Below the pieces are notes generated by a model, which was given only the letters and a program-made list of their open reading frames with translations, ran no database searches and was not told the DNA's origin. From assembly GCA_945869855.1 (NCBI GenBank), contig CAMBQC010000011.1, forward strand, positions 1 to 32,706: a stretch of DNA of 32,706 bases. Reading direction: 5' to 3'. This document shows, piece by piece, positions 21,156 through 32,706 of the stretch. The stretch's first letter is position 1; each line of letters starts with the position of its first letter. A program made the position numbers and the translations under genes. This DNA comes from Prosthecobacter debontii. GTDB lineage: Bacteria; Verrucomicrobiota; Verrucomicrobiia; Verrucomicrobiales; Akkermansiaceae.

Positions 21156-24100
21156 TCAGGAGAAATATAGGACTCCTGCGGAAAAGATGGGCTGGGCTTT
21201 GTTTCCGGGGATGTTTTTCGCGACGTTTTCGGAGAAACGCTCGGAGTGTGCCATTTTCCCGAAGACGCGGCCGCAGGGTGAGGTGATGCCTTCGATGGCG
21301 GCGAGGGAGCCGTTGGGGTTGAAGGGGTGCTCCATGGTGGGGGTGCCGGAGGGATCGCAGTATTGGGTGGCGATCTGGCCGTTGGTGGCGAGGGCGGCGA
21401 GAGTTTCCGGCGTGGCGAAAAACTTGCCCTCGCCGTGGGAGACGGGAACGGTGTGGATTTCACCGACGGCCATGTTCGCGAGCCACGGGGAAGAGTTCGA
21501 TACAATCCGGGTTTGGACGTATTGGGAGATGTGGCGGGAAATGTCGTTGTGGATTAATGTCGGCTGTACCGACGGATCGTGGATCGTCGATTGTAGATGG
21601 GAATCTTCGATCTTCGATCCGCTATCCACGATCTGCCCGTAGGGCACAAGGCCGGTTTTGACGAGCGCTTGGAAGCCGTTGCAGATGCCGAGGACGAGGC
21701 CGTCGCGGTTTTCGAGGAGGTCGGAAATGGCGTCGCTCACGCGCGGGTTGCGGAGAATGGTGGCGATGAATTTCGCGGAGCCGTCGGGTTCATCGCCGGC
21801 CGAGAAACCGCCGGGGATGAAGAGGATCTGGGATTCGCTGATTTTTTGGGCGAGAGAGTGGATGGATTCGGCGATGTGTCTCGCGGAGAGGTTGCGGAAG
21901 ACCTCGATGTGGGTGGTTGCGCCGACGCGGTGGAAGGCGCGGGCGGAGTCGTATTCGGAGTTGGTGCCGGGGAAGGCGGGGATCAAAACCTTTGGTTTTG
22001 AGATCGTGGATTGTGGATTGCGGATGGTGGATGACTGGAGCGGAGTATCTACAATCATCAATCCACGATTTACTATCTCCGATCCGGCCTCCGGCCGGGA
22101 TGGGTAGACGGGCTCGAGGGTGGATTGCCAGGCGGATTGGAGATCGGCTAGGGAGTGGGTTTCGCCGTTGAGGGTGAGGGTTTCGGCTTCGGTGGTGGTG
22201 CCGATTTCCCGGGAGTTTAGGTAAGTGGGAAGTGCTTCGTTGTGTTCGATGAGGAATTGGAAATAGGCTTCGTTGAAGAGGTTGACCGGGCGACCGAAGA
22301 TCGCTCCCACGTGGTTGCCGAGGCAGCATTTCGTGATGGCGGCGGCGAGGCCGGCTTTGCCGATGTGGTGGAGGGAGAGGATTTTTCCGGCCTTGTTGAG
22401 GTTGTGGAGAGCTTCGGCGGTTTGTTTGAGGGCGTCGAAATCGGGGAGGCCGTTTTCGAGGATGGGGGTTTCTACGATGGATACCGTAGATCCGGGTTGC
22501 TTGAACTCGGGGGAAAGGGCGAGGGAGGCGAGGCCGGGGGCGAGAGCGAAGGAGACGAGGGTGGGCGGGACGTCGAGGTCGTTGAAAGAGCCGGACATGG
22601 AGTCCTTGCCGCCGATGGCGGCGAGGCGCAGTTCGTGCTGGGCGCGGAAGGCTCCGAGCAGGGCGGCGAAGGGAAGTCCCCAACGTTTTGGGTCTTGCCC
22701 GAGTTTGGGGAAATATTCCTGAAGGGTGAGGCGGATGTCTGAGAGCCGTGCTCCAGCGGCGACGGCCTTGCAGACGGATTCGGTGACGGCGTAGGCGGCT
22801 CCGAGGAAGGGGGAATTTTCAGAAAGGTGGGGATCGAAGCCCCATGCCATATAAGTGGCGTGATCGGTTTCGCCTTCCAGCACCGGCAATTTCGCGACCA
22901 TGGCGTCGGGCGGGGTGAGTTGGTGTTTGCCGCCGAAGGGCCAGAGGACGGTGTTGGCGCCGACGGAGGAATCGAACATTTCGCCGAGGCCTTTTTGGGA
23001 ACAGATGTTGAGGGAGGCCAAGTGATCGGTGATCGGTGATCGGTGATCGGTGGGAGAGGTTGCGGACTGAAGTCGGCAGTCCGTGACGTGGACTTTGGCG
23101 GTTTGCTGGACGCCGTTGGTGTCGAGGAAGGCTCGGCTGAGGTTGACGATTTCCTTGCCGCGCCAATGCATGATGAGGCGGCCGGAGTCGGTGACGTCGG
23201 CGACGTGGACGCATTCGAGGTTTTCCTTGTCGGCCTCGGCGATGAAGTAGGCGATTTCCGAGCGGTCGATGCAGACGGCCATGCGTTCCTGGGATTCGGA
23301 GATGGCGAGTTCGGTGCCGTCGAGGCCGTCGTATTTTTTCGGGACGGCATCGAGGTTAATGACGAGGGAGGGGGCGATTTCACCGATGGCGACGGAGACG
23401 CCGCCGGCTCCGAAGTCGTTGCAGATCTTGATTTTGCGGGTGAGTTGCGGGTTGCGGAACAGGCGCTGGATCTTGCGTTCGGTGGGGGCGTCGCCCTTCT
23501 GGACTTCGGCGGAATTTTCGAGGGCGGTTTCGGTGTGCTCTTTTGAGGAACCGGTCGCGCCGCCGACCCCATCGCGTCCGGTGCGGCCGCCGATGAGGAG
23601 AATCACATCGCCGGGGGCTGGCGAGCCGCGGAAAACGTTGGAGCGTGGGGCGGCGGCGACGACGGCTCCGATTTCAAGGCGTTTCGCGACGTAGCCGGGG
23701 TGGTAGACCTCGGCGACCTGGCCGGTGGCGAGGCCGATCTGGTTGCCGTAGGAGGAGTAGCCTTTGGCCGCGACCTGGCAGATCTTTTTCTGGGGAAGTT
23801 TGCCGGGGAGCGTTTCGGAAAAGGGTGTGAGCGGGTCGCCCGCGCCGCTGAAGCGCATCGCCTGATAGACGTAGGAGCGACCGGAGAGGGGATCGCGGAT
23901 ACAGCCGCCGAGGCAGGTGGCCGCGCCGCCGAAGGGCTCGATCTCAGTGGGGTGGTTGTGGGTCTCGTTTTTGAACTGGATGAGCCATTCCTCGGTAATG
24001 CGGGCAGGCACGGGGGCGATCTGAAGGTCGATGGGAACTACGCCGTTTTCCGAAAGAATGAAGTTGTCAGGTTTCGCGTCGATCACGGCGATACCATTGG

Positions 24101-30956: not shown

Positions 30957-31003
30957 CGTTGGGACAGGATATCCCAACGACGGACTGGGACTCCAAGTCC
31001 CAG
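30957..31003. repeat. Two adjacent REP-like hairpins between the U32 gene and the TPR-like lipoprotein gene
   Basis: CGTTGGGA-CAGGATA-TCCCAACG (30957-30979) and CTGGGAC-TCCAA-GTCCCAG (30985-31003), both perfect stems with no long T tract. Confidence 0.75.
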
Positions 31004-31009
31004 CCACGG

Positions 31010-32706
31010 TTACGCGAGGGTGCCTTCGGTGACGCCGAGTTTCTCTGTGGCGTGGATTTCGTTGAGGAGCGTGGCGGGTGAGATTTTTTCCGAAAGCAGA
31101 TCCTGATAGGAGCGGATGGTGGAGAGCGCGTCGGTTTGGTTTTCGTCGAGGAGCTCGATGCGGAAATGGCGGAGTCCGGAGGCGAGAAGCTGGGGGAGGA
31201 AGCGGGCGCCGGTCTGGGCGCGGCCGTTGAAGAGGGTGTTGCGGCAGCCGACATCGGCCTGCAGGCGGTGGAGCTGGCCGACGCGGTCGCGGAGGTGGAC
31301 GGTGTGCTTTTCGCAGGGTCGGCCGCAGTCCTTGTAGGTGGTGCCGGAGCTGAGGAAGGTGCAGAACACGCAGTGCTCCATATGAAACATCGGCATGTGC
31401 TGGTGAAGGGTGAGTTCCAACCATTCCGGCGGGGTTTTTCCTAACAGGTCTAGGACTTGGGAGATGTTCAGGTCATAGGAGATGGTGAGGCGATCGAGGC
31501 GGGCGGCTTCGCGGAGGAGCTTCGCGGAGAGAGGGTTGGCGACGTTGAGGGAGAAATCGCCGATCTTCACAATGTCGCTACGGTCTTTGTAGTAGTTGAG
31601 GGCGGCGAGGTTGCGGAGGAGGAGGCCGTGGGGTTCGGCGCGCTCGATGAGTTTCAGGTAGCCGGTTTCGCCGGGTTTGAGGATGCGGGGGGTGGCTAGA
31701 ATGATTGTTGATTGAGGATTGATGATTGAGGATTTGAAGAGGGATACCGCTTCCTTGTAGCGGCGGGGGTCTTCGAAATCGCAGTAGATTTGGGGGATGC
31801 CGGCTTCGAGGGCGGCTTCAAGTTGGGGGAGGGTGCGGGTGAGGACGCTTAGTTTTGGAGTGCCGGGTGATCGGTGATCCTCCGTCGCTGGAGCTATGGC
31901 GGACAGGTCGGTGATCGGTGGGAAGAGGGCTTCGGTTGTGGTGGGGGAAGATTGGCGATTGATGATTGATGATCCGACTTCGCCGAGGCTACGACGGACA
32001 GGTTGCTGATTATTGATTTGGGAGAGGTTGGTGACGAGGTCGCGGCGGAGTTGGTTGAGGGCGGAAAGGGGGAGGTGGCAGTTGCCTTCGATTTGGTTGT
32101 CGAGGGAGGCGAGTTCGTAGGGGGTGTCGCCGAGGCGGGAGAGTTGCTTTTCGAGAGTTTCGGTGGTGAGCGGTTGGTTCGATGCAGGTTCGAGCGGGAT
32201 CGTGGAAGACGCCTTGGAGACAAAGCCTGCGACCGATGCGGTGAGCGGATCGCCGGGTTGGCCGGTGAGGGTGATGTGGATGGGGGTTTTCTTGATTTTT
32301 GGTTTAGCGGATTGCCAGAATTTGCGGATTTCGGATTCGAGGGCGGGGTCGGCGGTTTTGTAGAGGGTGACGCCGGGGCGGATGCGGTCGAAGTTGATGC
32401 CGGAAAAGGTGCGGTGGAAGATGATGCGGTCGTTCTCGATTTTCCAGATCGAGGCGCCCTGTTCGAGATCGCGGTTCTCGCCGGCGTCGAAGACGATGCC
32501 GTCGCCGGCTTTGAGCGGTGGTTTTTGTTGGGATGGCGGGGTGTCGAGGCGGATCCAGCCGTTCTGTGCTTCGATGATCGTGCCGAGAAACGGGCCGCGT
32601 TTTTTTCCGAATTTCCCGTGAGTGAGGTAGGGGTGGTTGGTGCCTGCGAGCCAGCCGGTGGTGAGGCCGCGGGAGAAGGTCATTTCTAACTGGTATTTCT
32701 CTTCTT
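31010..32706 (-). CDS. U32 family peptidase (RlhA/YdcP-like), 5' end beyond the right edge, with in-frame repeat insertions
   Basis: The frame stays open past the ATG at 32683 to the edge (EEKYQLEMTFSRGLTTGWLAGTNHP...). MFHMEHCVFC, GRPCEKHTVHLRDRVGQLHRLQADVGCRNTLFN. Confidence 0.9.
   Translation of the reverse strand, partial: EEKYQLEMTFSRGLTTGWLAGTNHPYLTHGKFGKKRGPFLGTIIEAQNGWIRLDTPPSQQKPPLKAGDGIVFDAGENRDLEQGASIWKIENDRIIFHRTFSGINFDRIRPGVTLYKTADPALESEIRKFWQSAKPKIKKTPIHITLTGQPGDPLTASVAGFVSKASSTIPLEPASNQPLTTETLEKQLSRLGDTPYELASLDNQIEGNCHLPLSALNQLRRDLVTNLSQINNQQPVRRSLGEVGSSIINRQSSPTTTEALFPPITDLSAIAPATEDHRSPGTPKLSVLTRTLPQLEAALEAGIPQIYCDFEDPRRYKEAVSLFKSSIINPQSTIILATPRILKPGETGYLKLIERAEPHGLLLRNLAALNYYKDRSDIVKIGDFSLNVANPLSAKLLREAARLDRLTISYDLNISQVLDLLGKTPPEWLELTLHQHMPMFHMEHCVFCTFLSSGTTYKDCGRPCEKHTVHLRDRVGQLHRLQADVGCRNTLFNGRAQTGARFLPQLLASGLRHFRIELLDENQTDALSTIRSYQDLLSEKISPATLLNEIHATEKLGVTEGTLA
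31703..31737. repeat. Heptad tandem array in the U32 gene
   Basis: GATTGTT GATTGAG GATTGAT GATTGAG GATTTGA: five consecutive 7-bp units. Confidence 0.85.
31869..31919. repeat. GATCGGT heptads interrupted by a palindromic element (E1) in the U32 gene
   Basis: GATCGGT GATC-[CTCCGTCGCTGGAGCTATGGCGGACAG]-GTCGGT GATCGGT. The 33-bp window 31876-31908 aligns without gaps to 31971-32003. Confidence 0.8.
31950..32021. repeat. GATTGAT heptads interrupted by a palindromic element (E2) in the U32 gene
   Basis: GATTGGC GATTGAT GATTGAT GATC-[CGACTTCGCCGAGGCTACGACGGACAG]-GTTGCT GATTATT GATTTGG. Confidence 0.8.

Follow-up and report, generated by a model that had tools for sequence, protein, structure and literature searches.

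Rickettsia palindromic elements measure about 100-150 bp and are not known outside Rickettsiales. The HUH elements IS200/IS605, IS91 and Helitron have hairpin ends and cause no target duplication. The SDR elements of Nostoc punctiforme are reportedly hairpins of 21-27 nt with compensatory changes, which are said to be embedded in heptameric arrays and other repeats at a precise insertion point, to nest within themselves and to be confined to a cyanobacterial subgroup. We know of no mobiliser for these SDRs. Among them, SDR5 has been described as precisely inserted into HIP1 (PMC4390886). REP/REPIN elements occur with RAYT transposases and fall into GTAG and CGTC super-families (Di Nocera et al. 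2013, PMC3733652).

By its behaviour, the element reported here finds its nearest known kind in the Nostoc SDRs, a likeness that is drawn from their description: it is a similarly small dispersed unit (30 nt, below a limit of about 35 nt) with precise ends, forms a hairpin with compensatory changes and sits in heptamers and in itself. In contrast to the SDRs, it occurs in nine phyla or more, and REPs and hairpin loops are among the sequences that it interrupts. With the REP/REPIN elements, which are palindromes of 20-40 bp (PMC3733652), it has in common that copies are dispersed, multi-phylum and sometimes intragenic; however, it lacks a GTAG/CGTC end tag, was not found beside RAYT at the locus inspected and uses CGTC REPs as insertion targets. 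It resembles the Rickettsia elements as a palindrome in frame within unrelated proteins, but is only 30 bp long and pan-phylum. The A/T junction (a slash marks the insertion point) with its 5'-TC is reminiscent of Helitrons, and CTTG is similar to the tetranucleotide that IS91 targets. Unlike HUH elements, the 30-bp unit has no coding part, and the A/T junction is not general across phyla.

Two hairpin insertions in the linker of a U32-peptidase gene

The window, that is the whole stretch of 32,706 nucleotides analysed, belongs to an Akkermansiaceae-type verrucomicrobial MAG (G000; 1.96 Mb, 136 contigs, 80% complete). A gene on its minus strand (31010..32704), running off the contig end, encodes a U32-peptidase/DUF3656 protein in which both the DUF3656 and the Peptidase_U32 domain were found. 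The linker between these domains carries two copies of the element within one open frame. E1 (31878..31907, minus strand; CCTGTCCGCCATAGCTCCAGCGACGGAGGA) is of subtype CATAGC..GCGACGG and is supported by alignment, flanks and absence from orthologues, and E2 (31973..32002, minus strand; CCTGTCCGTCGTAGCCTCGGCGAAGTCGGA) is of subtype CGTAGC..GCGAAGN and is supported by core matches in the genome and absence from orthologues. On the plus strand, a GATCGGT heptad array lies to the left (31866..31877) and to the right (31908..31920) of E1 (GGTGATCGGTGA / TCGGTGATCGGTG), and the joined flanks agree at 7/7 positions at lag 7. E2 has a GATTGAT array on its left (31950..31972) and a degenerate heptad array on its right (32003..32019), both on the plus strand (GATTGATGATTGATGA / TTGCTGATTATTGATT), with 6/7 agreement upon joining. 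A third array in the same gene (31701..31734, plus strand) contains no palindrome and serves as an unoccupied comparison. A perfect GTGATCG array of 4.4 copies in another long open reading frame (23022-23052) is likewise free of it.

In full agreement with the initial annotation, positions 31876-31908 and 31971-32003 align without gaps with 25/33 identities on recomputation, both copies interrupt heptad arrays with the flanks it described, and the two are read in different frames of one open frame, E2 as PVRRSLGEVG and E1 as DLSAIAPATED. Its alignment of 33 bp is thus correct; the insert itself, judged by comparison with empty sites, amounts to 30 bp and not 33, over which E1 and E2 share 22/30 positions. 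The insertion point is indeed fixed within heptads, but the proposed 'GATC' end reflects a boundary ambiguity of 1-2 bp, the junction on the element strand being A/TC.

Comparison with empty orthologous sites, which had also been suggested, was informative. Both insertions are absent from 26 related U32 genes, all but two of them from the same genus. In the relative L015, the E2 position is occupied by a heptad array, and in L014 the E1 position by heptad-like repeats, neither of which contains the palindrome. Taking orthologues and unoccupied repeats of the same genome together, the insert is shown to be exactly 30 bp without duplication of its target. Since other relatives carry unrelated heptads (TTCGACGTTCGATG) in the same linker, the latter gathers heptad arrays repeatedly and gives the impression of a site that tolerates their expansion. 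The linker arrays differ between species, with AATCATC, GATCACC and TTCGACG/TTCGATG units in orthologues L014, L015, L017, L022 and L033. Polymorphic insertion within a species was not seen, which counts against a mobile element. Several copies in the genus are common to more than one species, so that the activity of the element may be old. A second stretch of the genome (G000:C94:6336-6566) matches the initial 77 residues of the U32 protein at 94% identity and is probably a strain-variant overlap at the contig end or a paralogue.

The minus-strand consensus of the element reads CYTG-TCCGYCRWAGC-nnnn-GCGAMGnCGGA. Searching the genome for further copies, as the initial annotation had advised, returned eight exact matches to TCCGNCRNNGCNNNNGCNNNGNCGGA in 1.96 Mb and none for the reversed-pattern control; with E1 as the ninth there are nine clear copies, which are therefore not attributable to chance. 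Seven of the nine reside in heptads, all in the same phase (A/TC) and orientation, where a heptad call means a lag-7 score of at least 6/7 across the junction, a threshold reached by 0.25% of random positions. Strict lag-7 arrays number 38 in about 1.10 Mb sampled from the genome, or 0.13% of bases, compared with nine of period 6 and four of period 8. The enrichment of copies in heptads rests on the unbiased search of the own genome; the query for the genus-wide search carried heptad flanks, which biases the heptad fraction found there. The remaining two copies split other dispersed repeats, CGCGCCCA / TTCGCGTTCATTCGCGG and GCATCCGCGTGGA / TCCGTGG. Unoccupied relatives of the hosts are present in the same genome: AATCAAAAATCCAAAATCAACAATCATCAATC (L293) for an AATC heptad, with a similar array in L271, ATTCGCGCCCATTCGCGTTCATTCG (L292) for the TTCGCG host and ATCCGCGTCCATCCGTGG (L279) for the CCGTGG host, the last being the exact host of a filled copy in another species (L064). 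One genus thus offers at least four host types, i.e., two heptads and the TTCGCG and CCGTGG repeats, and the element ends are identical in all. A separate dispersed family around GGGACTTGNAGTCCCAGC (30960-31012 in the window; L271, L310, L320) is often bordered on one side by a diverged palindrome copy.

Seven of the nine copies in this genome lie in long open frames, encoding the U32 protein (twice), an M3 peptidase, an IS91-type transposase, SMC, AlaRS and a pyruvate-carboxylase-type enzyme. Protein linkers tolerate the element because its 30 bases correspond to ten codons and, as read from E2, five of six frames are open. The CYTG strand is the sense strand in all seven genic copies. This bias stems from the fixed orientation relative to the heptads, whose antisense contains TGA stops, and hence need not mean transcription-coupled insertion. 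The AlaRS gene (G000:C43:2830-6351; L303) is also unusual in another respect: its 1174-aa open frame contains an in-frame RAYT/Y1 transposase domain (aa 484-579) that splits the tRNA-synt_2c domain after profile position 376, in addition to the palindromic element, and another species of the genus looks the same. RAYT matches within frames of more than 1000 aa were also observed in other genomes, and related long frames are located at G136:C17:18955, G405:C8, G380:C46, G375:C66 and G204:C53.

Hairpin structure and occurrence across phyla

The unit consists of CYTG followed by an imperfect hairpin of 26 nt with a 6-bp outer stem, a 3x3 internal loop (for example GWA opposite GAA), a 2-bp inner stem and a tetraloop. 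Folded as RNA, the cross-phylum consensus adopts the structure ((((((...((....))...)))))) with CTTG unpaired at -13.3 kcal/mol; E1, the more diverged copy, folds no better than shuffled sequences. Over 112 distinct sequences, 993 cells are paired as compared with 958.6 +/- 5.2 upon shuffling, a procedure that ignores relatedness. Covariation is found mostly at the ends of the tetraloop, where C-G and T-A replace each other, and individual genomes exhibit double changes in the outer pairs (CCCGCC..GGCGGG, TCCTCC..GGAGGA, TCCGCT..AGCGGA). The GWA/GAA internal loop is largely non-canonical. The pairing of the hairpin is shown to be maintained by compensatory change.

That the core resembles a palindrome dispersed over several environmental phyla had been put forward in the initial annotation and proved right. 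An exact scan of GTDB representatives for TCCGYCRWAGCNNNNGCGAAGNCGGA yielded at least 120 stretches, compared with about one chance match expected in 264 Gb on the assumption of even base composition. Among the matches listed are Pseudomonadota, Bacteroidota, Verrucomicrobiota, Planctomycetota, Acidobacteriota, Omnitrophota, Elusimicrobiota, Patescibacteria and Actinomycetota. With a 29-nt pattern and up to two mismatches, copies were retrieved in 43 of 44 of these genomes and the control gave 0 throughout. Copy numbers reach 80 in a 2-Mb Omnitrophota MAG and 48 in Pedosphaera; the isolates Flaviaesturariibacter aridisoli and Bradyrhizobium ivorense have 15 and 12, respectively. The occurrence in isolates and in multi-copy genomes argues against binning contamination. 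In the sample of Verrucomicrobiota, the element is found in 57 of 295 genomes and in 41 of 154 genera, as opposed to no match with the control pattern. The distribution is patchy, as exemplified by genome G305 with 17 copies, most species of whose genus have none. In Acidobacteria and Acidimicrobiia (L088, L094, L098, L107, L152, L184; G112), copies are often of a subtype with GCGG instead of CTTG before the hairpin, the ends of which may be defined differently.

The consensus had no match in PLSDB plasmids, INPHARED cultured phages or E. coli genomes, and IMG/VR contained only 21 exact stretches. Spread by sequenced plasmids or cultured phages was rejected on the PLSDB and INPHARED results. 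Rfam gave no match over the elements at E<=5, and a literature search by sequence and by words, which covered few subscription papers, brought up no description of the palindrome.

Insertion sites outside the genus

In Bradyrhizobium, 13 CGTC-type REPs are filled with the exact unit, nearly all at GCGA/AGCAATCC (GCGA/AGC), and 13 are unfilled, eight of them in the 29-bp form. The element also enters itself. Nineteen copies sit at TCCGCCGW/AGC, which is its own internal loop, and several in the Omnitrophota genome sit at the apical loop, CT/TG. Further hosts are hairpin loops such as CATCCCGGCGG / AAGCCGGGATCC. Of 250 copies, 157 have CTTG or CCTG as the tetranucleotide before the hairpin. The proposal that the element targets heptad arrays stands with respect to the fixed site; heptads are, however, only one target among several (9-mer-type repeats, REPs, hairpin loops and own copies), and the association may in part be due to co-dispersal of heptad and palindrome.

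When flanks are joined across the insertion, inverted repeats arise in 8 of 119 cases and heptads in 5 of 119, as opposed to 0.6 and 0.37 with flanks shuffled between loci. The cross-phylum copies were grouped into 118 flank clusters. With one site per cluster, both junction bases are unpaired inside a helix at 50% of sites and at 35% of random sites (p=6e-4). Overall fold energy at the empty sites did not differ significantly, and a general excess of strong hairpins there was not significant either (p=0.16). There is thus a genuine, if modest, preference for unpaired tips. Most cross-phylum sites have no recognisable host repeat or structure, and this counts against a mobile element.

Possible modes of dispersal

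Taken together, we regard E1 and E2 as copies of a small, non-autonomous, mobile hairpin element of 30 bp that inserted precisely, and we put the probability of this reading at roughly 0.65. The element would move in the form of a folded single strand, most probably of DNA, and this strand would be joined in trans to repeated DNA where the latter is itself unpaired or exposed. The predicted enzyme would act in the manner of REP/IS200 single-strand transposition or of Nostoc SDR spread. The single-stranded-DNA step by itself falls somewhat short of even odds. More tentatively still, a single lineage of the 30-nt hairpin may constitute an independent mobile element in nine or more phyla, entering unpaired tips and internal loops of hairpins, its own included, as well as heptad arrays precisely and without target duplication, by means of a structure-guided activity, hitherto undescribed, that either belongs to the host or acts in trans.

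The main competing explanation, which we consider unlikely, is that the hairpin entered each kind of host repeat only a few times and that the host repeats then spread with the hairpin inside. In one genome at least, G305, such composite dispersal seems to take place: 12 of 12 copies inspected there have flanks of the AAAGAAAGTAACCAAAGAAAG..GGTTG/AGCGGGAGGCGG type, one of them weaker. The heptad flanks of the own-genus copies also look alike (TCAAAAATCCNNAATCAACAA on the left, TCATCAATC on the right). The composite repeat, AAAGAAAGTAACCAAAGAAAG..GGTTG-element-AGCGGGAGGCGG, is common to G305 (L357-L390) and a Lentisphaeria MAG (L151), which is evidence that amplification of a host repeat can carry an enclosed hairpin along; as many G305 copies share the larger repeat, copy number overstates the number of insertions. 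Yet within one genus the element has the same ends in no fewer than four types of host, unfilled heptads with matching flanks are present, REPs and self-nesting show insertion of the 30-bp unit alone, and the cross-phylum copies fall into as many flank clusters as stated above. Independent insertions would accordingly number fewer than one per copy, to judge from the at least four host types in the genus and many more across phyla. That the two copies, 65 bp apart in one linker, arose by local duplication of a conserved protein segment has practically no probability left: orthologues lack the segment, further copies are dispersed in the genome, and E1 and E2 differ in frame and belong to two subtypes, both of which occur elsewhere. 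The two refuting conditions named in the initial annotation, a lack of other genomic copies and an origin by local duplication, therefore both fail.

Two further explanations concern the mobiliser of the element. A look for a RAYT transposase, which the initial annotation had recommended, gave six RAYT-family matches in the genome of the window; the closest-inspected RAYT locus is flanked by other repeats and has no copy of the element beside it, and element-rich genomes can lack RAYT/Y1. We consider it improbable that we are dealing with a REP element proper moved by these Y1 enzymes. The unpaired 5' tetranucleotide and the internal mismatches of the hairpin would fit, and RAYT matches were obtained in 49 of the 57 Verrucomicrobiota genomes with the element and in 160 of the 238 without it, a comparison made without phylogenetic correction. 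Against it speak the missing GTAG/CGTC tag and two genomes without any Y1 match, G305 (17 copies) and G129 (21 copies), whose copies may nevertheless be composites; indeed, the argument is weakened by the fact that the 12 inspected G305 copies share one host repeat and may have been amplified by other forces. RAYT/Y1 as obligatory mobiliser is not supported in view of these two genomes, which have no Y2 or RVT_1 match either. An IS91/Helitron-type Y2 mobiliser is not supported, Y2_Tnp being present in 2 and absent from 23 of the 25 genomes searched. Copying of the hairpin as RNA followed by insertion through reverse transcription, a route suggested for some of the Nostoc SDRs, is very improbable. 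The stable RNA fold of the consensus and one RVT_1 gene in the genome of the window are in line with it, but the absence of RVT_1 matches from G305, G129, G102, G133 and G106 (17-80 copies each) speaks against a resident reverse transcriptase, and neither poly-A nor 5' truncation was evident in the copies inspected. None of the RAYT, Y1, Y2 and reverse-transcriptase genes consistently tracks the element, which we count against the mobile-element reading.

The precisely inserted hairpin may rank among the smallest and most widely distributed of mobile DNA elements and, if mobile by itself, would cross phyla, unlike the Nostoc SDRs. Many clean pairs of filled and empty sites are available, including some in growable isolates (Bradyrhizobium, Flaviaesturariibacter), and through these the movement of elements below 50 bp becomes testable. 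The element also explains odd inserts of ten residues in essential proteins such as AlaRS, SMC, the pyruvate-carboxylase-type enzyme and UvrA-type ATPases, which pass through annotation pipelines as protein sequence.
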